Source: Acidobacteriota bacterium
GTDB taxonomy: Bacteria > Acidobacteriota > Terriglobia > Terriglobales > SCQP01
Direction of reading: 5' to 3'
Length of the DNA: 64,000 nt
Assembly (NCBI GenBank): GCA_021789895.1
Contig: JAJYIU010000013.1
Span: 1-64,000, forward strand
Positions 19,477 to 63,096 of this stretch are shown here, piece by piece (the first letter of the stretch is position 1; each line of letters begins with the position of its first letter). The translations under genes and the position numbers were made by a program. A model generated the notes under the pieces. That model was not told the DNA's origin. It saw only the letters and a list, made by a program, of their open reading frames with translations, and did not search any database.

Positions 19477-19577
19477 AAAATGCGGTGGAGGAAAGAAAGC
19501 GATCGCCCGCCGGCCTCAGCTTTCAGCCGGAGAGTTGTCAGCCCTAAAGCCGGCGCTGATCGCTTCCACCACCGCTT
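19477..19577 (-). terminator. long imperfect hairpin downstream of actE
   Basis: Arms at 19482-19504 and 19558-19575 pair over two 8-bp blocks separated by a 5-nt bulge, enclosing a 53-nt internal segment with a further small hairpin. Read on the minus strand it lies just after the actE stop and ends in ATTTTG. It is probably the 3' end of the act operon transcript and is unusually large for a terminator. Confidence 0.4.
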
Positions 19578-20434
19578 TAATAAAAGTGGGTTTTCAGGCG
19601 CGATTCGGGGCCGTCATCCTGCAGTAACTTCTGATGGGCTTGCGTTTCGGCGGCCACCTGGGCCTGGCGTTTGCGCCGGCGCTCGCTGCCGGCCTGGCCG
19701 GCGAGGGCCAGGGCCGCCAGGAAAAACAGCGACAGGCTGACGTAGTTCGGGATGTAGGGCAAGGGGAAATCGCGGCCAGGGTCGGGCCGCCGCGGCGGCG
19801 GGTGCAGCCAGGCGTAAATCTGCCGCGCCTGCGCCGGGCTGAGCTGCGCGGCAGCGAAGGCGGGCATCAGGCCGCCGCCATGCCGCACCTGAAAAAGGAA
19901 TTTCGCCTGCGGCAAGGCGGTGTTGAGGATGCCCGGGCCGATGCCGCCGCGGGCTTCGGCGCCGTGGCAGGCAAGGCAATTTTGCTGGAAAACGAGCGCG
20001 CCGGGAGCTTTGGGATCCGGCGGCGGCAGCAACGCCGCGGCCGGCGGCGGCGGCAGGCGGTTGACGTAAGTTAGCAGTTGCGCCAGTTGCGCGCCGGAAA
20101 TCTTCGCCGGCGGAAATGCCGGCATCACCAGCCCGCCCTGGCGGACCTGCAGATTGAAGACCGCGGCGGACCAGGAGCGCGCCGCAATTTGCGGGCCGAT
20201 GCGCCCGGCGCCGCGAGTGCCGTGGCAGGGGGAGCAGTTTTGGGCAAACAGCGCGCCGGTCCGCGGGCCGGCGGGCGCGGCGGGAGTCGGCAGAACGGCG
20301 GCGGCCGGCACTGCCGGTGCGGGGACGCGGCGCGGCAGCGCATAGCTGGCGGCGGTGGCGGCGGCGAGCGCGCCGAGCAGGGGCAGGAAAAGGCAGCCGA
20401 GGCGCGATGTTGGCGGAAGCGATAAGCGACGCAT
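19577..20434 (-). CDS. actE: diheme cytochrome c, Act complex subunit E type
   Basis: A 285-residue cytochrome with two haem-binding motifs, CSPCH (near residue 68) and CLACH (near 154), each followed by a methionine-containing segment (VMPAFPP and LMPAFAAAQ) that may give the sixth ligand. Residues 12-33 are a signal anchor, and a second hydrophobic segment near 230-250 (LSLFFLAALALAG) makes it a membrane-held periplasmic protein. ActE of known complexes is usually monohaem, so this looks like a tandem duplication of the cytochrome domain. AGGGGAG precedes the ATG, and the gene closes the act operon after a 17-nt gap. Confidence 0.75.
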   Translation of the reverse strand: MRRLSLPPTSRLGCLFLPLLGALAAATAASYALPRRVPAPAVPAAAVLPTPAAPAGPRTGALFAQNCSPCHGTRGAGRIGPQIAARSWSAAVFNLQVRQGGLVMPAFPPAKISGAQLAQLLTYVNRLPPPPAAALLPPPDPKAPGALVFQQNCLACHGAEARGGIGPGILNTALPQAKFLFQVRHGGGLMPAFAAAQLSPAQARQIYAWLHPPPRRPDPGRDFPLPYIPNYVSLSLFFLAALALAGQAGSERRRKRQAQVAAETQAHQKLLQDDGPESRLKTHFY

Positions 20435-20451
20435 AAGATCTCCCCTGGCGA

Positions 20452-20946
20452 TCAGCGGGCGGGATCGAGCGCGGCCAGCAATTGCCGCGCCTGCCAGGCC
20501 TGCTCGGCATCGCTGCAGGCGACGCAGACAATCGCTTCGCCGAAGTTGAGTTCGGGATGTTCCACGGCGCGGCGGCCGGGTCCGAGCCGGGCGCCGAGCA
20601 GCAGATGGAGCAGCATCGCGATGATCGAGCCCAGCAAAGTCATTTCGTAGGTAATGACGCCGATGGGCAGGGGCGAGATCAGCGGCATGCCGCCGGTGTG
20701 CAGGCGATAGCCGAGCGTCATCGCCACGATCGCGCCGATGGCGGCGCTGAAGCCGAAGAGCGCGCCGAGGATGCCCAGCTTCGACATGGAGCTTGGCGGC
20801 GGGGGAAATTCCGGCAGCGGCTCGCGGCTGAGCACCTGGATGCGGCGTTCGGCGATGCCTTCCCGGCGCAGCCGCGCCACGAGGCCGGGCAGGCCGGCGC
20901 CGCCGGGCGGCGGATCCAAGGCTACGCGCAGGCTGACTTCAATCAC
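20452..20946 (-). CDS. actD: Act complex subunit D (DUF3341)
   Basis: Small membrane subunit of alternative complex III. It reads from a GTG at 20946 that overlaps the actC stop (GTGA), giving 164 residues. Two transmembrane helices are clear (about residues 57-80 and 96-118), flanked by soluble ends, which is the DUF3341 plan. A longer reading frame upstream is only an overlap with actC in another frame. It keeps the operon order of known act clusters. Confidence 0.82.
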   Translation of the reverse strand: MIEVSLRVALDPPPGGAGLPGLVARLRREGIAERRIQVLSREPLPEFPPPPSSMSKLGILGALFGFSAAIGAIVAMTLGYRLHTGGMPLISPLPIGVITYEMTLLGSIIAMLLHLLLGARLGPGRRAVEHPELNFGEAIVCVACSDAEQAWQARQLLAALDPAR

Positions 20947-22289
20947 GACTGACCTCCCGATTCGGCCGCGGCGGCGTGCTTGCCGCCGCCCAGTTCCCAG
21001 ATGGAGATGATGGGGAAAATTTTCGAAAAGATCATATAAAGCAACGCCATGGCCGCTAGCGTCGCCAGCGAGAGGCTGATTTCGGTCCAGTGCGGGTAAT
21101 AGCCGAACCAGGAATTGAAGCTCAGGCGCTGGTTGGCGGCGCCGGGTACGACGATCAGAAACCGTTCCAGCCACATGCCCAGGGTGATGGTGATCGAGGC
21201 GATCACGGTTCCGGAAATGGTGCGCAGCCGCTTGATGGCGAGCAGCGGAAACGGAATGACGAAGTTGCACAGCACCATGGCCCAGAACAGCGGCGCGAAA
21301 TGGCCGCTGATCTTGCTCCAGAAGGTGCCCATTTCGTCGGGCAAATTGCCATACCAGGTGGTGATCATCTCGGCGACGACGAAGTAGCCCCAGAGTAGCG
21401 TCATGGTGAGCAGCAGCTTGCCCAGATTGGAAAAGTGCTTGGGCTGGAGATAGGCCTCGAGGTGATAGACGCGGCGCAGGATGGCCATGATGATGATCAG
21501 CGCGGCAATGCCGCTGAAGATGGCGCCGGCGACGAAGTAGGGCCCGAAGATGGTGGAATGCCAACTGGGCACGACCGCCATGGCGAAATCCCAACTCACG
21601 ATGGTGTGCACCGAAACGGCGATGCCGATCACCACCGCGGCCATCAACTGGATGGCGAGCTCCAGCCGGTGCCATTGTTGCTGCGTCCCGCGCCAGCTCA
21701 TCGCCAGGAAGCGGTAGAGGCGCTGCCGCCAGCCGCGGGTGCGGTCGCGCGCCAGCGCCAGGTCGGGCAGCAGCGGCAGGAACAGGTAGATCGAGCTGGC
21801 GGTGATGTAGGTGGAGATGGCGAAGAAATCCCATTCCAGCGGCGAACGGAAATTGGGCCAGATCAGCCGCTCGTTGGGATAGGGCGCCAGCCAGAAGAAC
21901 AGCCAGGGACGGCCCAAGTGAATGATGGGGAAAATGCCGCCGATCATCAGCGCGAAAACGGTGATCGCCTCGGCGGCGCGGGTGACGGCATAGCGCCAGG
22001 TGGCGTTGGTCAGCCGCAGGATGGCCGAAATCAGCGTGCCGGCGTGGCTGATGCCGATCCAGAAGACGAAATCGGTGACGAAAAAACCCCAAAACACCGG
22101 ACGCCGCAGCCCGGTGACGCCCAGGCCGACTATCGCCTGGTAGAGAAAGCAGAACAGGCCCCAGCCGATTACCGCCAGCAGCAACAGACTCATGCGGCGG
22201 TACGCCTTGCCGGTAAACAGCATCGGCCGCATCAGCGTCTGGGCGGCGGCTTGGGGTGGTTCGTTGACGGCGACTGTCACGGTGCTCAT
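20943..22289 (-). CDS. actC: Act complex subunit C (NrfD-like quinol-oxidising membrane subunit)
   Basis: A 448-residue polytopic membrane protein of the NrfD/PsrC family with about ten predicted helices. In alternative complex III this subunit holds the quinol site and passes electrons to the iron-sulfur ActB. Family landmarks seen include FVFWIGISHAGTLISAILRL near residue 73 and IFPIIHLGRPW near 119, where the conserved His and Arg/Asp-type residues lie. Its ATG overlaps the upstream FeS subunit stop (ATGA). The electron route, quinol to ActB to ActA/ActE cytochromes, is family knowledge. Confidence 0.88.
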   Translation of the reverse strand: MSTVTVAVNEPPQAAAQTLMRPMLFTGKAYRRMSLLLLAVIGWGLFCFLYQAIVGLGVTGLRRPVFWGFFVTDFVFWIGISHAGTLISAILRLTNATWRYAVTRAAEAITVFALMIGGIFPIIHLGRPWLFFWLAPYPNERLIWPNFRSPLEWDFFAISTYITASSIYLFLPLLPDLALARDRTRGWRQRLYRFLAMSWRGTQQQWHRLELAIQLMAAVVIGIAVSVHTIVSWDFAMAVVPSWHSTIFGPYFVAGAIFSGIAALIIIMAILRRVYHLEAYLQPKHFSNLGKLLLTMTLLWGYFVVAEMITTWYGNLPDEMGTFWSKISGHFAPLFWAMVLCNFVIPFPLLAIKRLRTISGTVIASITITLGMWLERFLIVVPGAANQRLSFNSWFGYYPHWTEISLSLATLAAMALLYMIFSKIFPIISIWELGGGKHAAAAESGGQS

Positions 22290-23053
22290 GCTTCCACCTC
22301 CGCGGTGGGAGTTGGAGCGGCGGCCAGCCGGCTATCGGGCGGGGTGACGCGGCGCGCATAGCGAACCTTCGGCCGGGTGCCGACCTCGGGCAGCAGCACT
22401 TCCAGCCCGGAGGAATCCCAGGCCGCGCCCACCGCGCCACCGGGATTGTTCAAATCGCCGAACCGCAGCGCCTCCGCCGGGCAGGACTGCGCGCAGGCGG
22501 GCTGAATATCGCGCTCGCGCAAGGCGCGTTTTTCCAGCTCCGCCTGGCGCTCGGCGGCGAGGATGCGTTGGATGCAGAAGCTGCATTTTTCCATGATGCC
22601 GCGCGTGCGCCGGCTGACGTCGGGATTCAACTGCACTTCCATCGGCGAGGGCCAGGCGTAGTCGAACCAGTTGAAAAAGCGCCCCTGGTAGGGACAGTTG
22701 AGCCCGCAGTAGCGGGTGCCCACGCAGCGGTTGTACACCTGCACGCTGATGCCTTCCGCGTTGGTGTAGGTGGCCAGCACGGGACAGACCGGCTCGCAGG
22801 GGGCCGCGTCGCACTGCTGGCAGTTGACCGGCCGGTTTTCCACCCGGAAGTTGCGCCCCGACCCGGTCCAGGTGCGCTCGATCCGCATCCATTGCAGCGT
22901 GCCGTTGTAGGCGGCTTCCTTGGCCCCGGCGATGGCGATGTTGTTCTCCGCCCGGCAGGCGACCGCGCAGGCGGAACAGCCGGTGCAGGCGTTCAGGTCA
23001 ATGATCATTCCCCAGCGGGGCGTGGCAGCGGGCTTGGAGTCCGTTTGCGACAT
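22286..23053 (-). CDS. actB2: Act complex iron-sulfur subunit (C-terminal half of ActB)
   Basis: Four-cluster ferredoxin-like subunit. The Cys motifs are visible in order: CTGCSACAVAC, CQQCDAAPCEPVCP, CVGTRYCGLNCP, and CSFC with CAQSCP, as expected for four iron-sulfur clusters of the polyferredoxin chain. In most alternative complex III systems this domain is fused to the molybdopterin-like ActB; here it is a separate gene. ATG 23053 is taken as the start; a TTG at 23071 overlaps the upstream stop (TTGA) and is an alternative. It lies between the molybdopterin-like half and actC. Confidence 0.85.
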   Translation of the reverse strand: MSQTDSKPAATPRWGMIIDLNACTGCSACAVACRAENNIAIAGAKEAAYNGTLQWMRIERTWTGSGRNFRVENRPVNCQQCDAAPCEPVCPVLATYTNAEGISVQVYNRCVGTRYCGLNCPYQGRFFNWFDYAWPSPMEVQLNPDVSRRTRGIMEKCSFCIQRILAAERQAELEKRALRERDIQPACAQSCPAEALRFGDLNNPGGAVGAAWDSSGLEVLLPEVGTRPKVRYARRVTPPDSRLAAAPTPTAEVEA

Positions 23054-23067
23054 AAGGTCAGTCAGCC

Positions 23068-25347
23068 TCAACGATGCAGAATTTCCTGGTGCAAACTATG
23101 GCCGAACAGCGGCAGCGGCAAGCGGCGTCCGGAAGCCGACAGGCGAACTCGATTCGCCTTCCAGGCCAGCGCGCCGGTGGCCGGATCGCGCAGGTCGGCC
23201 AGCAGCCGGAAAGGGTTGGCGCCGCGATTGGTGGGCGCGTCGCCCGCGCTGTGTCCCTGGCCGGCCGGAATCGCGACCGTGTCGGGGCGCAAGCCGGGAT
23301 AGAGAAAGACCGGCAACTCGATGCGGCCGGCGGCAGATTCCACCCACGCGCCATCGCCCTGGCGCAAGCCCAGCTTGGCGGCCAATTGCGGGTGCACCTC
23401 GACCCAGTTGCACCACATCGCGGAAGTGGTCGGGTCGGGCAGCTCCTGCAGCCAGGTCAGCCAGCTCCCCGTCCCGTCGCCCATCAGCGGCGATTCGTAA
23501 AGATCCAAATACAACGGATATTCCGAACTCGCGGGCGCAGTCGGCGCGGTCAGAGCCGAAGGCTGCGCCGGGAGCTGCAGCCGGCGGGCGGCAGAGGAAG
23601 GCGCTGCCGCGGCGGCATTCGGGGTATTCGCCGGGGCGGGCGCGGTCCAGAAGCCGCCCCGCTCGAGGGCCGCCGGCCAGAAATCGGCAAACGGCTGCCG
23701 CGGCGCATAACGCTGCTGTATGGCATGCCAGTGGCGGCGGATTGCCAACTCGGCGGCGCCGGCGGGCGCGGCGGCAGCGACCGCCGCAATTGCAGGAGCT
23801 GCGGATGAAGCCGAGGCGGTCGCGGCAGGCGCGGTCTTGGCGGACGCGGCGGGCGCCGCCGGCACCGCCGGCGGCGATAGCTCGGTCACGATTTCGATGA
23901 GCGAGCGCGTGTCGTGCAAGGGCTGCATCGCGGGCGGATTCAGGCTGGCGACGAAACCGGCGGCGGTGACGCGCTCGTCGTCCGCCCAGCTTTCGAGCGT
24001 GGTTGAAAGCGGCAGCACCAAATGCGCCATCTGCGCGGTTTCGTCCGGCATCGTGCCGAGCACCGCCACGTAAGGGATGGAGGCCAGCCAGGCTTCGAGT
24101 TTCCAGCCCGGAGGCGCGGAAAAGACCGGATTGGCCTCGTGCACGATCAAGACTCGCGGCGCGGGCTGGCCGGCAGGCATGGAAAACGCGCTGGGCGTTG
24201 CGGGCGCGCCGGACTTGTGCGGCTGGGCTGCGGCAGGCGAAGACGCCGCCGGCAGTGCGGCCGCGGGCGACGCTTCGCCTTCCGCCAGGCTCGCCAGGAA
24301 ACCGATCGCCGCGGCTTGAAACGCGGCGTGCTCGTGGGCGTAAGCGCCGGGGCCGCCAAGCACCAGCGGCTGCCGCGCGGCCGCCAGCCGCCGGGCGGCG
24401 GCGCGCAGTTGCGAGGCAGGCACGCCGCAGATGCGGCCCGCCCGCTGCGGGGTGTACGGCCGCAGCCAGGCCGGCACCGACGACTCGCCGCCGCGCAAGG
24501 CAATCCACTGCGCCGCCAGCGCCAGTGCGAAGACGCCCTCGGCGCCCGGCCGCAGCGCGATCCATTGATCGGCGTTGGTGCCGGTCAGCGACAGCCGCGG
24601 CTCGGCCTGTAGGAAGACGCTGCCGGGACGGCGGCGGAAACGGCTATAGGCGCGGATGGCGCCCGCCTGGCCGGGCCAGGCTTCCAGAAAATTGCCGAAG
24701 GAAAGCAGGCAATCGGCCTGCGGCAGGCGCTCGAGCCGGAGCGCGTCGGCGGCGGCGCGCGGCGCGGGCAGCGCCTCGTATTCCCACCAGCGCGCCTGCA
24801 GCCGCGTCAACCAGGCGCCCGTTAGCTCGGCTTCGGTGGCGCGCAGCGGGCGCCCCAACCAGGCCACTTCGCCGGGACGCGCCGCCTGCAACTGCCGCCG
24901 CAGCCGGTCGCCGGCCGCGCTCCAGCTCAGGCGCTGCAGCGGCGCGCCGGGCCGCGTCCGTTCGCCCGGCGCCGCCAACCGGCGGGGATGATAGGTCGCT
25001 TCCAAGCCGGCCTGCCCGCGCGCGCAGAGCCCGCCCTGGTTCAGCGGATGCTCGGGATTGCCTTCCAGCTTCTTCGCCACCAGGCGCGCCTGGCGGAACG
25101 CCTGCCCGTCGCGCTCGAGCGGCACGATCGCCTGCATGCGCTTCACCAGCACGCCGCAGCCGGCGCCGCATTGGCGGCAAAGCCCGCGCGACCAGTAGGC
25201 CGTTCCCGGCACGATCGTCTCTTCCGGAATCAGCAGCGGCGCCAGCTCGCGGCCCTGGGTGTGGCAGCCGGCGGCGGCCGCGCTCGCTGAACCGACTAGC
25301 GTGAGCTTGACAAAATCGCGGCGCGGGAGTGAAAACCGATCGCTCAT
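23068..25347 (-). CDS. actB1: Act complex molybdopterin-oxidoreductase-like subunit (N-terminal half of ActB)
   Basis: A 759-residue member of the molybdopterin oxidoreductase superfamily, exported by the Tat route: PRRDFVKLTLVG near residue 8 is a twin-arginine signal, and a Cys at 28 after SAAAAG could be lipidated. A CxxCxxxC pattern at 57/60/64 with a further Cys at 108 resembles the iron-sulfur ligand set of true molybdoenzymes. Residues about 370-400 and 500-540 are Ala/Pro-rich, low-complexity insertions. In known alternative complex III the homologous domain has no Mo cofactor, so its role is structural. A strong GAGGAGG ribosome site precedes the ATG. Together with the FeS gene it replaces the usual single ActB. 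Confidence 0.85.
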   Translation of the reverse strand: MSDRFSLPRRDFVKLTLVGSASAAAAGCHTQGRELAPLLIPEETIVPGTAYWSRGLCRQCGAGCGVLVKRMQAIVPLERDGQAFRQARLVAKKLEGNPEHPLNQGGLCARGQAGLEATYHPRRLAAPGERTRPGAPLQRLSWSAAGDRLRRQLQAARPGEVAWLGRPLRATEAELTGAWLTRLQARWWEYEALPAPRAAADALRLERLPQADCLLSFGNFLEAWPGQAGAIRAYSRFRRRPGSVFLQAEPRLSLTGTNADQWIALRPGAEGVFALALAAQWIALRGGESSVPAWLRPYTPQRAGRICGVPASQLRAAARRLAAARQPLVLGGPGAYAHEHAAFQAAAIGFLASLAEGEASPAAALPAASSPAAAQPHKSGAPATPSAFSMPAGQPAPRVLIVHEANPVFSAPPGWKLEAWLASIPYVAVLGTMPDETAQMAHLVLPLSTTLESWADDERVTAAGFVASLNPPAMQPLHDTRSLIEIVTELSPPAVPAAPAASAKTAPAATASASSAAPAIAAVAAAAPAGAAELAIRRHWHAIQQRYAPRQPFADFWPAALERGGFWTAPAPANTPNAAAAAPSSAARRLQLPAQPSALTAPTAPASSEYPLYLDLYESPLMGDGTGSWLTWLQELPDPTTSAMWCNWVEVHPQLAAKLGLRQGDGAWVESAAGRIELPVFLYPGLRPDTVAIPAGQGHSAGDAPTNRGANPFRLLADLRDPATGALAWKANRVRLSASGRRLPLPLFGHSLHQEILHR

Positions 25348-25371
25348 TGCGCCTCCTCGGCGGCCCGTGGA

Positions 25372-25866
25372 TCAAACATGACAATCCTCACAACCGGTTT
25401 TGGCGCCGTGCTGACGATGGCAGGCGATGCAAACCCCCATCGGCATCGGCTTCCACACCCGCGCCGTCGCGAGGCGCCGCATGTCGCCGTGGCAGGTGCG
25501 GCAGGCCAGCCCGGCGGCGAGATGCAGGTTATGGCGAAAGCGCAGGTGCGCCGACGCCGGGTAAACATACACCCGCTGCCAGGGGATTTCGATTCCGCGC
25601 CGGGCATAGTCCATCACCTGGCGGATGAGCGGAGAGCGGGCGCGGAGGCGCTGATGGCAGAGGGCGCACTCGCGCACGCTGGGCAGCCCGGCCCGGTTCG
25701 AGACCGCGGCGTCGCGGTGGCAATCGGCGCAATGCATGCCGGCCTGCAGATGCAGGTTGTGGGGGAAGGCGATCGGCTGGCGCGGGGCGCGGAGCCCCAG
25801 GCGAGGGTAGGCGGCGCCTAAGCCCGCCAACACCAGCGCCGCCAGCGCATATTTCCATCGCTTCAT
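25372..25866 (-). CDS. actA: pentahaem cytochrome c, Act complex subunit A
   Basis: First gene of the act operon. Five CxxCH haem motifs are seen in about 165 residues (CADCH, CALCH, CRTCH, CIACH, CEDCH), the count expected for ActA. One N-terminal hydrophobic segment (WKYALAALVLAGLGAA) anchors or exports it to the periplasmic side. ATG 25866 is chosen; a GTG three codons earlier is possible and the ribosome site is weak. Several extra histidines (FPHNLH, FRHNLH) are likely distal haem ligands. It is separated from actB1 by 24 nt and divergent from the cytochrome/cupredoxin fusion gene. Confidence 0.88.
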   Translation of the reverse strand: MKRWKYALAALVLAGLGAAYPRLGLRAPRQPIAFPHNLHLQAGMHCADCHRDAAVSNRAGLPSVRECALCHQRLRARSPLIRQVMDYARRGIEIPWQRVYVYPASAHLRFRHNLHLAAGLACRTCHGDMRRLATARVWKPMPMGVCIACHRQHGAKTGCEDCHV

Positions 25867-26213
25867 AAAAAACACTCGTCGTTCGGGGATATCTCCCGGC
25901 GGGACGGCCGCGGGCGGGAGGACTCGAACCGCGCGCGGCCGTTCCGGCCGTGGAGCTTGCAGCCAGGGCGCGCGCCGGCGGCGGCGCCGAGGCCATCACC
26001 TCATTCCGTGATTCCGGTCAAGCAGCACCGGTCTGAATGTGACCTTACCGGGCTGGCGGCTAAAATTCCGTGACTACAGCCAAAGCAAAGCGTGACTGCA
26101 AACACTCATAGCCGCGTGGAGAGTGACCCGAATCACATCCGCGCGTAAGCCGGCGCAATGACAGCCCCGCGGCGGCGTGCTGGAATGATGGCAGGACGCT
26201 ACTGGAGGATGCG
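25867..26213. other. divergent intergenic region between act operon and cytochrome genes
   Basis: About 350 bp with no gene. It should hold the promoters of both divergent groups. A CRP/FNR-family palindrome lies at 26122-26137 (listed separately). A GGTTCGAGTC-like element on the minus strand near 25920 looks like a tRNA T-loop but has no matching acceptor stem. No clear -10/-35 pair was found. Confidence 0.5.
26122..26137. promoter_or_regulatory. CRP/FNR-family operator candidate
   Basis: GTGA-CCCGAA-TCAC is a perfect dyad matching the CRP core GTGA-N6-TCAC. It is in the region between the divergent act operon and the cytochrome/cupredoxin gene, where a redox or energy regulator would make sense. 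Confidence 0.4.
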
Positions 26214-27137
26214 ATGCCGCGATGCGGATGGCGATTGGGTGCCGGGCTGGCGCTGCTGGCCGGCACGCTGGCGGGCCAGGCGCAGCTTTCCGGGCGGGTG
26301 CAGTTGCCGGCGGCGCGCCGGACGCCGCTGCCGGGCGCTTGGGCCGCCGCCGCGGCTCCGCCGGCCGCGGTCTATCTGGCGCCGCAGCGGCTGCTAACGG
26401 CCGCCGGCCGGCCTTCGTTCCAGCTCAACGTTACCTGGAACCGCTTTACGCCGGCGCTGCTGGCGGTGCCGGCGGGGGCGCAGGTGATTCTGGCAAACCG
26501 CGGCACCGTCCGCGAGCCGCTCGAACTGCTGCGGCTGCGCGGCCAGGAGCGGTTTCAACAGCACTGCGCCATCTGCCATGGCTCCAATGGCGAGGCGCTG
26601 ACCCCGGTGGGGTCCAGCATGCAACCCCACGCGCTCAACCTGACCTCGCCCGGCATTCAGGCCTGGAGCGAGGCCCACATGGCGCAGGTGGTCTGGCACG
26701 GCATCCCCGGCAGCGGCATGCCGCAATGGCAGCGGGTGCTGCGCTACCGCGACCTGCTCAACATCGTGCATTACGTCAAGCAACTGCCCGCGATCAACCG
26801 CGGCACCGCCCTGCCACCCGCTTCCGGGCCGGCCCGCCGCGCCGCCGGCTGGGTGAGCGATCGCCTGGGCACGCTCGCCCCGGGCGAGACGCGGACGCGC
26901 AATTTCCCCCTGCCCGGCATTTATCCGGTGGATATCGCCTCGCAGCCCGGCGAGCCCGCCTACATCGTGGTCGCCCCCAGCCCGTACTGCACCATCACCG
27001 ATGTGGCCGGCCGTTACCGCCTGCCGCCGGCGCCGCCGGGACATTATCAGCTCGTGGTCTGGCAGCCGGGCAGCCCCGCCATCGTGCGCAATCTCGTGCT
27101 CCAGGCCAATACCAATCTCAGTTTGAATTTGCACTGA
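26214..27137 (+). CDS. cytochrome c domain inserted in a cupredoxin-like protein with a carboxypeptidase-regulatory-like end
   Basis: A 307-residue exported protein with an unusual domain order. After a signal peptide (about 1-23), residues 68-107 look like the first half of a plastocyanin-like cupredoxin (FTPALLAVPAGAQVILANRG). A mono-haem cytochrome c domain follows (CAICH at 118-122, probable axial Met at 169). The second cupredoxin half then resumes at about 222-253 (LAPGETRTRNFPLPGIYPVD, AYIVV) and runs into TDVAGRYRLPPAPPGHYQLVVW (262-283), the usual carboxypeptidase-regulatory-like tail of such proteins. The Cys, His and Met positions that bind copper in relatives are replaced (PVDIASQPGEP), so it should not bind copper. 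TGGAGG precedes the ATG, and a small cytochrome c follows. Confidence 0.7.
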   Translation: MPRCGWRLGAGLALLAGTLAGQAQLSGRVQLPAARRTPLPGAWAAAAAPPAAVYLAPQRLLTAAGRPSFQLNVTWNRFTPALLAVPAGAQVILANRGTVREPLELLRLRGQERFQQHCAICHGSNGEALTPVGSSMQPHALNLTSPGIQAWSEAHMAQVVWHGIPGSGMPQWQRVLRYRDLLNIVHYVKQLPAINRGTALPPASGPARRAAGWVSDRLGTLAPGETRTRNFPLPGIYPVDIASQPGEPAYIVVAPSPYCTITDVAGRYRLPPAPPGHYQLVVWQPGSPAIVRNLVLQANTNLSLNLH

Positions 27138-27176: not shown

Positions 27177-27551
27177 ATGCTTCAGCTACGTACTTCATCT
27201 CCGGCGCGCCGCTTCAGCCTGGCCGCCGCGCTGTCGTTGGCCCTGGGCGGCGGCCTCGCCCTGGCGGCGCACGGCCGCGGCGGTTCCGGCAGCTCTGCGC
27301 TGGCCGCCGGCCGCAGCCTGTTCATGTCCAAATGCGCTGTTTGCCATAAACCCGACGGCAGCGGGCAAAGCTATCTCGGTCCCAAGGCCAATCTGCATCG
27401 CACCGCGGTGCAGAAAAAATCCGACGCCGAGTTGGAAGCGTTCATTAAAAAAGGTTTTCCCCCGATGCCGGCCTGGAATGGAGTGCTGACCGAGACCCAG
27501 ATCAAGTCGGTCGTCCGCTATATCCGCACCTTTAAATCCGGCAAGCATTAA
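27177..27551 (+). CDS. small monohaem cytochrome c
   Basis: A 124-residue periplasmic cytochrome c. The signal peptide spans about 1-30, and the haem motif CAVCH is near residue 52. A GPKANL stretch and PPMPAWN with the probable axial Met follow. AAGGAGG lies about 11 nt before ATG 27177, so this is the chosen start; the open frame runs 7 codons further up. It is 39 nt after the cupredoxin/cytochrome fusion and may be co-transcribed. It closely resembles the cytochrome at 62222-62542. Probable role: soluble electron carrier between the Act complex and a terminal acceptor. Confidence 0.85.
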   Translation: MLQLRTSSPARRFSLAAALSLALGGGLALAAHGRGGSGSSALAAGRSLFMSKCAVCHKPDGSGQSYLGPKANLHRTAVQKKSDAELEAFIKKGFPPMPAWNGVLTETQIKSVVRYIRTFKSGKH

Positions 27552-62221: not shown

Positions 62222-62542
62222 CTACTTATGCTGCAGCGCGCGCACGTAGGCCACCAGCGCCCGGATTTGCGCCGGCGAGAGCGAGTTATAGGCGGGCATG
62301 GGCGACGCGCCTTTGCGGATGATGGCGGCGATCTGGGCGTTGGTTTTTTTCTTCGCGGCCGGCGTCAGCAGGTTCGTTTTGGGGCCCATGAAGCTCACCC
62401 CGCCGCCGCTGCTGCCGTGGCAGCCGGCGCATTTGGCGGTATAAAGCTTATGTCCCGCCGCCGGCTTGGCGGCCTGAGCCGTAACCAGCCCTATCCCCAG
62501 CGCCAGGGCTGCGATTCCAATCCATTGCTGCATGCGTGTCAT
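62222..62542 (-). CDS. small monohaem cytochrome c
   Basis: A 106-residue periplasmic cytochrome c: signal peptide to about residue 24, haem motif CAGCH near residue 38, then GPKTNL and the probable axial Met in SPMPAYN. It is clearly related to the cytochrome at 27177-27551. AAAGGAATGG precedes the ATG. It is followed on the same strand by the six-haem cytochrome and may be a carrier for it. Confidence 0.85.
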   Translation of the reverse strand: MTRMQQWIGIAALALGIGLVTAQAAKPAAGHKLYTAKCAGCHGSSGGGVSFMGPKTNLLTPAAKKKTNAQIAAIIRKGASPMPAYNSLSPAQIRALVAYVRALQHK

Positions 62543-63096
62543 AGTCCATTCCTTTCACCGGCAATGCTGCCGCCGGCTGCAGTTCTATTGTCGGCCAGGC
62601 GCGGCGGCGCGGCTGTGATGCCGGTCATGCGTGCGCACCGCGGCGCTTACTTCGGTGCGTGCGCGGTAAAGCGCGAGCAGCCTGTGCGCGGAAATGCCGG
62701 CTACGCTGGCCGTTCTAGCTGGGGGTGGCATCCGGTTGCGGGTTCGATTTCTACGCAATAGATTTGCTGCCGGGAATCACACGATATAGTCATTTGGTAT
62801 TACGCTGACTGGTAGCTAAAATATTGCCGGCAGAACCGCAGACGAATAGTAAGCGTCGGTCAGGGAACATTTTAGATATTTTAATTTTTCCCTGATTGCC
62901 AGCAGGTTTGTGGTATGGTAATTGAGCCGAGCGGCTGTGGCATTACCCCTTCGGCACAGTTTCCATCACCACGGAAGTATCACCCGGTTGCCGACTCAGT
63001 GCATGCACCGGTGAATCGAGCATTGCGGTTTCCCCCTCGAGCCATTCACTGGCAGCGGAAGTTGATTCCCCGGTCCATGGCTTGCTGCAGGAGCTT
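62543..63096. other. long intergenic region before the NHL-repeat gene
   Basis: About 550 bp with no gene seen. It is more AT-rich than the neighbours. A promoter-like pair lies at 62794-62822 and a 7-bp hairpin near 62633-62665. The rest is unassigned. Confidence 0.5.
62794..62822 (+). promoter_or_regulatory. sigma-70-like promoter for the NHL-repeat gene
   Basis: TTGGTA (62794-62799), a 17-bp spacer and TAAAAT (62817-62822), pointing to the NHL gene 274 bp away. The leader would be long. Confidence 0.4.

Follow-up and report, generated by a model that had tools for sequence, protein, structure and literature searches.

We identified a secreted protein in which a class I cytochrome c domain is inserted into a plastocyanin-like cupredoxin that has lost all four of its copper ligands. 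The gene lies in the window (the whole stretch of DNA analysed, 64,000 nucleotides). We give a probability of about 0.5 to the reading that this chimera carries electrons in the periplasm for a Cyc2-like chain, probably one linked to Fe(II), haem having replaced copper and the cupredoxin being kept as a docking scaffold. The gene and its parts were assigned as follows.

26214-27137, + strand: chimera gene P0001, an exact open reading frame from ATG to stop (307 aa); secreted protein with the order signal peptide, cupredoxin N half, cytochrome c, cupredoxin C half, carboxypeptidase-regulatory-like (CpdR-like) tail
26214-26282, + strand: signal peptide, residues 1-23, recognised by inspection (basic N-terminus, hydrophobic core)
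26283-26534, + strand: cupredoxin N half, residues ~24-107, with Glu at the position of the first copper-ligand His of relatives
26535-26846, + strand: class I cytochrome c insert plus linker, residues ~108-211 (Pfam PF13442, AF2 model)
26565-26579, + strand: residues 118-122, the CAICH motif for haem c attachment, whose C, C and H do not vary among orthologues
26718-26720, + strand: Met169 of GSGMP, probable distal haem ligand, invariant in chimeras
26847-26981, + strand: cupredoxin C half, residues ~212-256, with the Cys/His/Met ligands replaced by Ile/Gln/Glu
26982-27134, + strand: carboxypeptidase-regulatory-like tail, residues 257-307 (PF13620), common to the insert-less paralogues

Long antisense open reading frames were common throughout this high-GC window, also over the chimera gene.

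A Pfam search with the chimera returned Cytochrome_CBB3 at residues 109-188 (1e-8), CarboxypepD_reg at residues 243-306 (3.4e-7; 31.0 bits, just below the gathering score of 32.3 bits) and a sub-threshold match to Cupredoxin_1 at residues 52-110. The cytochrome part was modelled confidently by AlphaFold (pLDDT about 70-93 across most of it), and model residues 88-171 adopted the class I fold, with 7o38 as the best PDB match (Z 12.8, rmsd 1.5 over 79 residues). C118 and H122 of the attachment motif and M169 were kept in all orthologues, and Met169 occupied the same alignment column as the Met in other class I cytochromes c, giving the insert both the CxxCH and the distal Met of this class. The motif is intact, and the chimera is predicted to bind haem c covalently. 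Among the fetched loci, the nearest relatives of the insert (about 40%) were a 158-aa monohaem protein on contig C54 of the same genome and cytochromes of genomes G009 and G013.

We then compared the flanks with insert-less relatives. Two insert-less paralogues of the same genome, on contigs C26 and C54, matched the chimera collinearly on both sides of the insert (C26: residues 39-104, then 214-306; C54: residues 69-101, then 214-306). When the five full-length chimeras (that of the window and four intact orthologues, from separate MAGs) were aligned by hhalign with 24 insert-less relatives taken from the order, the probability was 99.5 and the E value 1.3e-22; the alignment covered both flanks and left the cytochrome as a gap. 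Pfam Copper-bind (plastocyanin/azurin, PF00127) was found in 23 of the 24 relatives, and the PDB matches of this insert-less family were amicyanin, plastocyanin and CuNiR cupredoxin domains. The two flanks, joined without the tail, scored 34.3 bits against the insert-less profile (15.9 and 21.2 bits for the halves singly), compared with 3.9 bits for the best of 1000 shuffles, so the flanks are related to cupredoxins by sequence. These comparisons confirm, at the level of sequence homology, that the flanks are collinear halves of one plastocyanin-like cupredoxin. The earlier note, which had described a complete CAICH cytochrome c between two plastocyanin-like halves with a carboxypeptidase-regulatory-like tail, was thus borne out by Pfam, the paralogues and hhalign. 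Its boundaries for the halves (residues 68-107 and 222-283) were close but are better drawn as in the list above.

To the same note the copper positions looked lost, and the alignments agreed. The copper ligands H/C/H/M were present in 24/24 insert-less relatives and in 0/5 full-length chimeras, in which the corresponding residues were E or V, I, Q, and E or A. The loss is visible where a paralogue reading TVKHN...LRCTLHPDM aligns with TVREP...PVDIASQPGEPA in the window chimera. The structural residues N and G at aligned cupredoxin positions were kept in the chimeras. Since the type 1 copper ligands are gone, the chimera is a cupredoxin-derived protein and not a blue copper protein.

The AlphaFold runs were informative mainly for the insert. 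A first run with 5 alignment rows gave a pLDDT of 41; a second, with cytochrome rows added, reached a pTM of 0.60 with a good cytochrome and poor flanks, whose pLDDT with these rows was mostly <50 save in the strands beside the insert. Foldseek and VIA-align matched the cytochrome almost exclusively and returned no clear cupredoxin, a result that is not evidence against a cupredoxin. That both flanks pack into a single beta-sandwich is therefore predicted from homology and not from the model.

The chimera was present in 6/14 genomes of the window's uncultured family. Full-length orthologues were found in G003 (66% identical to the window chimera), G008 (59%), G005 (59%) and G006 (59%), and a fragment in G004. 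The named records (JAKASR010000008, JAKAZV010000001, DAHVCP010000007, DAHUYO010000095) are all metagenome assemblies. A contig search with the chimera profile recovered four orthologous loci, and one with the P0001 sequence alone gave no match. The domain order, which the earlier note proposed to look for in other Acidobacteriota, was found within the family; outside it, the profile detected no chimera in samples of 397 genomes of the order and 396 of the phylum (best 5 candidates per genome scored). A search of viral contigs for insert-less cupredoxins found none.

The neighbours of the chimera gene in the window were as follows.

27177-27551, + strand: small monohaem cytochrome c (PF13442), 39 nt past the chimera stop; ATG with GGAGG upstream
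19577-25875, - strand: divergent operon resembling alternative complex III (ACIII) and Qrc, 338 nt from the chimera
25372-25875, - strand: pentahaem c of this operon
23068-25347, - strand: Mo-oxidoreductase-like subunit of this operon
22286-23071, - strand: FeS subunit of this operon
20943-22289, - strand: NrfD-like subunit of this operon
20452-20946, - strand: small subunit of this operon
19577-20434, - strand: dihaem c of this operon

The chimera was always followed by the small cytochrome c, and close orthologues of the latter occurred in exactly the 6 chimera genomes among the 14 (p 0.0003, ignoring relatedness). A second small cytochrome c, at 62225-62554 on the - strand of the window, shared 47% identity with the small cytochrome c that follows the chimera. 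The divergent operon holds the subunits that define alternative complex III (multihaem c, Mo-like/FeS, NrfD-like and cytochrome c subunits); its best-scoring NCBIfam models were mostly Qrc and Dsr subunits, all under cut-offs.

Comparison of the orthologous loci revealed a porin gene in the same block. In G003, G005 and G006 the porin separated the chimera from complex III and was oriented head-to-head with the former. The adjoining complex was ACIII-like in G003 and bc-type (cytochrome b, Rieske, dihaem c) in G005 and G006, which belong to another genus, g4; in G003, as in the window, the chimera had the ACIII/Qrc-like operon as its neighbour. In G007 and G008 the porin adjoined an ACIII-like operon and the chimera was elsewhere or not assembled. 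Cytochrome b matches in these two genomes held in-frame stops, which may reflect a mis-set query start. The G008 chimera and porin were on different contigs, which counts against the link to the porin, as do the fragmented genome G004, in which no chimera-clade porin was found, and the window site itself, where 25876-26213 holds no porin. The G003 counterpart of that site (L030:8459-10132) has the porin between chimera and ACIII-like operon, and the window genome carries a close copy (84%) on contig C13 with no complex III beside it, so the porin seems to have moved. Across the 14 related genomes the association between chimera and porin clade was modest (p 0.026, or 0.10 when the G013 sister is counted). 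We also observed, divergent from the G008 chimera (L031:1633-2706) where porin and complex III would stand, a multihaem cytochrome with ten CxxCH motifs.

The porins resembled Cyc2, which is recognised by AXPXFAR[Q/K][T/Y] before CXXCH and PXL after it (PMC8406198), together with a C-terminal outer-membrane beta-barrel and a length >365 aa. Cyc2-like monohaem porins gave 22 matches in 11/14 genomes of the family (for example L030:8559-10040, L032:9149-10636 and L057:7446-8876) and were sporadic in the phylum (8/297 genomes; for example L116:7871-9403), often beside a copper plastocyanin. Their haem motif, single and N-terminal, matched the one published for Cyc2 or closely resembled it, and a PEL motif was present as well; trimmed rows were 422-447 aa long, and complete ones ended in Phe. 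The full motif was found in several plastocyanin-linked porins (AVPSFARQTGLPCSRCHITFPEL); some others began it with G or had Y in place of F. In the clade linked to the chimera the motif read [FY]SRQT, that is, [FY]S where the Cyc2 motif has FA. Homologues on plasmids included one of Acidithiobacillus ferrooxidans (35.7% over 96%). We call the linked porins Cyc2-like, with a putative C-terminal barrel; their electron donor would probably be Fe(II).

The insert-less relatives of the chimera were themselves tied to such porins. In 8/8 porin-linked family loci an insert-less plastocyanin with its copper ligands present lay directly upstream of the porin on the same strand; the C26 plastocyanin gene is linked to a Cyc2-like porin. 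The second copper plastocyanin of the window genome (G000:C54:24347-24949; L004, L058:14336-14950), 75% identical to that on C26, had no adjoining porin. The porin tree separated a copper-plastocyanin-linked clade (8 rows, 100/99) from a chimera/complex III-linked clade (7 rows with the G013 sister, 100/100). Outside the family, related copper plastocyanin, porin and cytochrome b genes were clustered in 6/9 porin loci, with a Rieske gene in four (L115-L118). At L113:4008-13040 and L116:1424-9403 the block appeared to comprise genes for plastocyanin, Rieske, cytochrome b, the porin and an octahaem protein, together with a large ORF resembling an FeS-flavoprotein; through such a set, electrons from iron might reach NAD(P)H.

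This gene order bears on the partner of the chimera. One alternative, which we regard as unlikely, is that the chimera simply accepts electrons from the adjacent quinol:acceptor oxidoreductase, or is an accessory subunit of it, and feeds an oxidase in forward respiration, with the porin incidental. The divergent position of the window chimera next to the ACIII-like operon and the bc-type operon beside the g4 block agree with this, and the inserted cytochrome resembles monohaem subunits of the ACIII structures 6lod, 8k9e and 6f0k. However, the kind of complex III differs between genera while the pair of chimera and small cytochrome persists, and an ACIII-like operon stood beside the copper paralogue, the porin-tied form, in only 1/8 family loci (L069). 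The earlier suggestion of an Act-like partner therefore holds as an adjacency within the window genus, but in the other genus the complex is bc-type, and the link to the porin is the more consistent one. Judged by gene order, the partner is probably not only an Act-like complex.

The divergence of the chimeras bears on the cupredoxin flanks. Between orthologues, the cytochrome was the best conserved segment (72-78% identity), compared with about 48-65% for the flanking cupredoxin segments, and in the cupredoxin tree the chimeras formed one clade on a long branch. Flanks that diverge faster than the cytochrome, on such a branch, would fit a remnant with no binding role, a tolerated leftover beside a cytochrome that does all the work. 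We consider this improbable: flanks and tail were intact in 5/5 full-length chimeras, the structural N and G were retained, and dN/dS was mostly <1, indicating purifying selection, the exception being the P-L011 comparison, with values of 0.84-1.01 for the C half and the tail. An assembly or binning artefact can be set aside almost entirely, for although the named records are all metagenome assemblies, the same fusion with the same boundaries and the same downstream gene recurs at 57-66% identity in separate assemblies of three genera.

The chimera is descended from the plastocyanin family. Its N-terminal PGAxP segment is common to the chimeras and the family's own plastocyanins and absent from another family's proteins, which points to a duplication inside this family. 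We give somewhat less than even odds to a cofactor swap on one scaffold, in a lineage whose copper plastocyanin serves a Cyc2-like outer-membrane oxidase: a duplicated plastocyanin would have lost its copper, acquired a cytochrome c in the loop next to where the copper had been bound, and taken over the same task with haem, leaving a haem chain parallel to a copper chain in the same cell. The chimera gene sits where related bacteria keep a copper protein beside the porin, and so it looks like a natural exchange of copper for haem. The ancestor would have been a plastocyanin-like protein of the periplasm, paired with a Cyc2-like monohaem porin in the outer membrane. After gene duplication, a class I cytochrome c would have entered the loop following the first copper-ligand strand, and with the loss of all four ligands the redox centre would now be a His/Met haem c, making the protein a one-electron carrier. 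The copper-less beta-sandwich and tail would remain as a scaffold for docking and presentation to a partner of the same kind. Together with the downstream small cytochrome c, the chimera would pass electrons between the porin, probably Fe(II)-fed, and complex III (ACIII-like or bc-type, by genus) or an oxidase. Haem loading, docking, the direction of electron flow and Fe(II) as donor are what we infer. The scaffold or docking role that the earlier note proposed for the cupredoxin is plausible and fits these data, and in that role the cupredoxin may present the haem.

Several known systems share parts of this arrangement. The C26 and C54 plastocyanins (PF00127 and PF13620) have the collinear halves, tail and PGAxP segment of the chimera, but they keep H/C/H/M and have no insert, whereas in the chimera those ligands are missing and a haem motif is present. 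Class I cytochromes c (PF13442) are alike in CxxCH, distal Met and modelled fold, but they are free or terminal and not inside another domain. In A. ferrooxidans, rusticyanin, a cupredoxin, receives electrons from Cyc2 and supplies either the downstream branch through cytochrome c4/aa3 or the upstream branch through bc1 (PMC10654088); complexes between cytochrome c4 and cupredoxins also form there (PMC5982212). As in the present loci, genes for an outer-membrane monohaem porin, a cupredoxin, a cytochrome c and complex III stand together there (PMC10654088, PMC8406198, PMC5982212), but in that chain the cupredoxin and the cytochrome are two distinct proteins, each redox-active, whereas the chimera is one polypeptide with a haem site only. 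Three-domain CuNiRs also join cupredoxin and cytochrome c naturally, a cytochrome c or cupredoxin being tethered in one chain (PMC13324648). Their tether is terminal and their copper sites are kept, in contrast to the inserted cytochrome and lost ligands found here. Our literature search, which covered few subscription papers, turned up only fusions of the two domains at a terminus, and no account of a cupredoxin, copper-less or not, that carries a cytochrome c within it. Both domains of the chimera are of ordinary kinds.

Haem and copper carriers interchange in many electron transport chains, plastocyanin and cytochrome c6 among them, normally as separate proteins. Here the exchange of haem for copper seems to have taken place inside a single polypeptide that retains its original fold, and the chimera makes it testable which part of a cupredoxin docking needs once the metal is gone. 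The Cyc2-like porin, plastocyanin and complex III form a recurrent gene block in Acidobacteriota, a phylum in which iron oxidation was little documented in the literature searched, and the function proposed for the chimera would be notable if confirmed.
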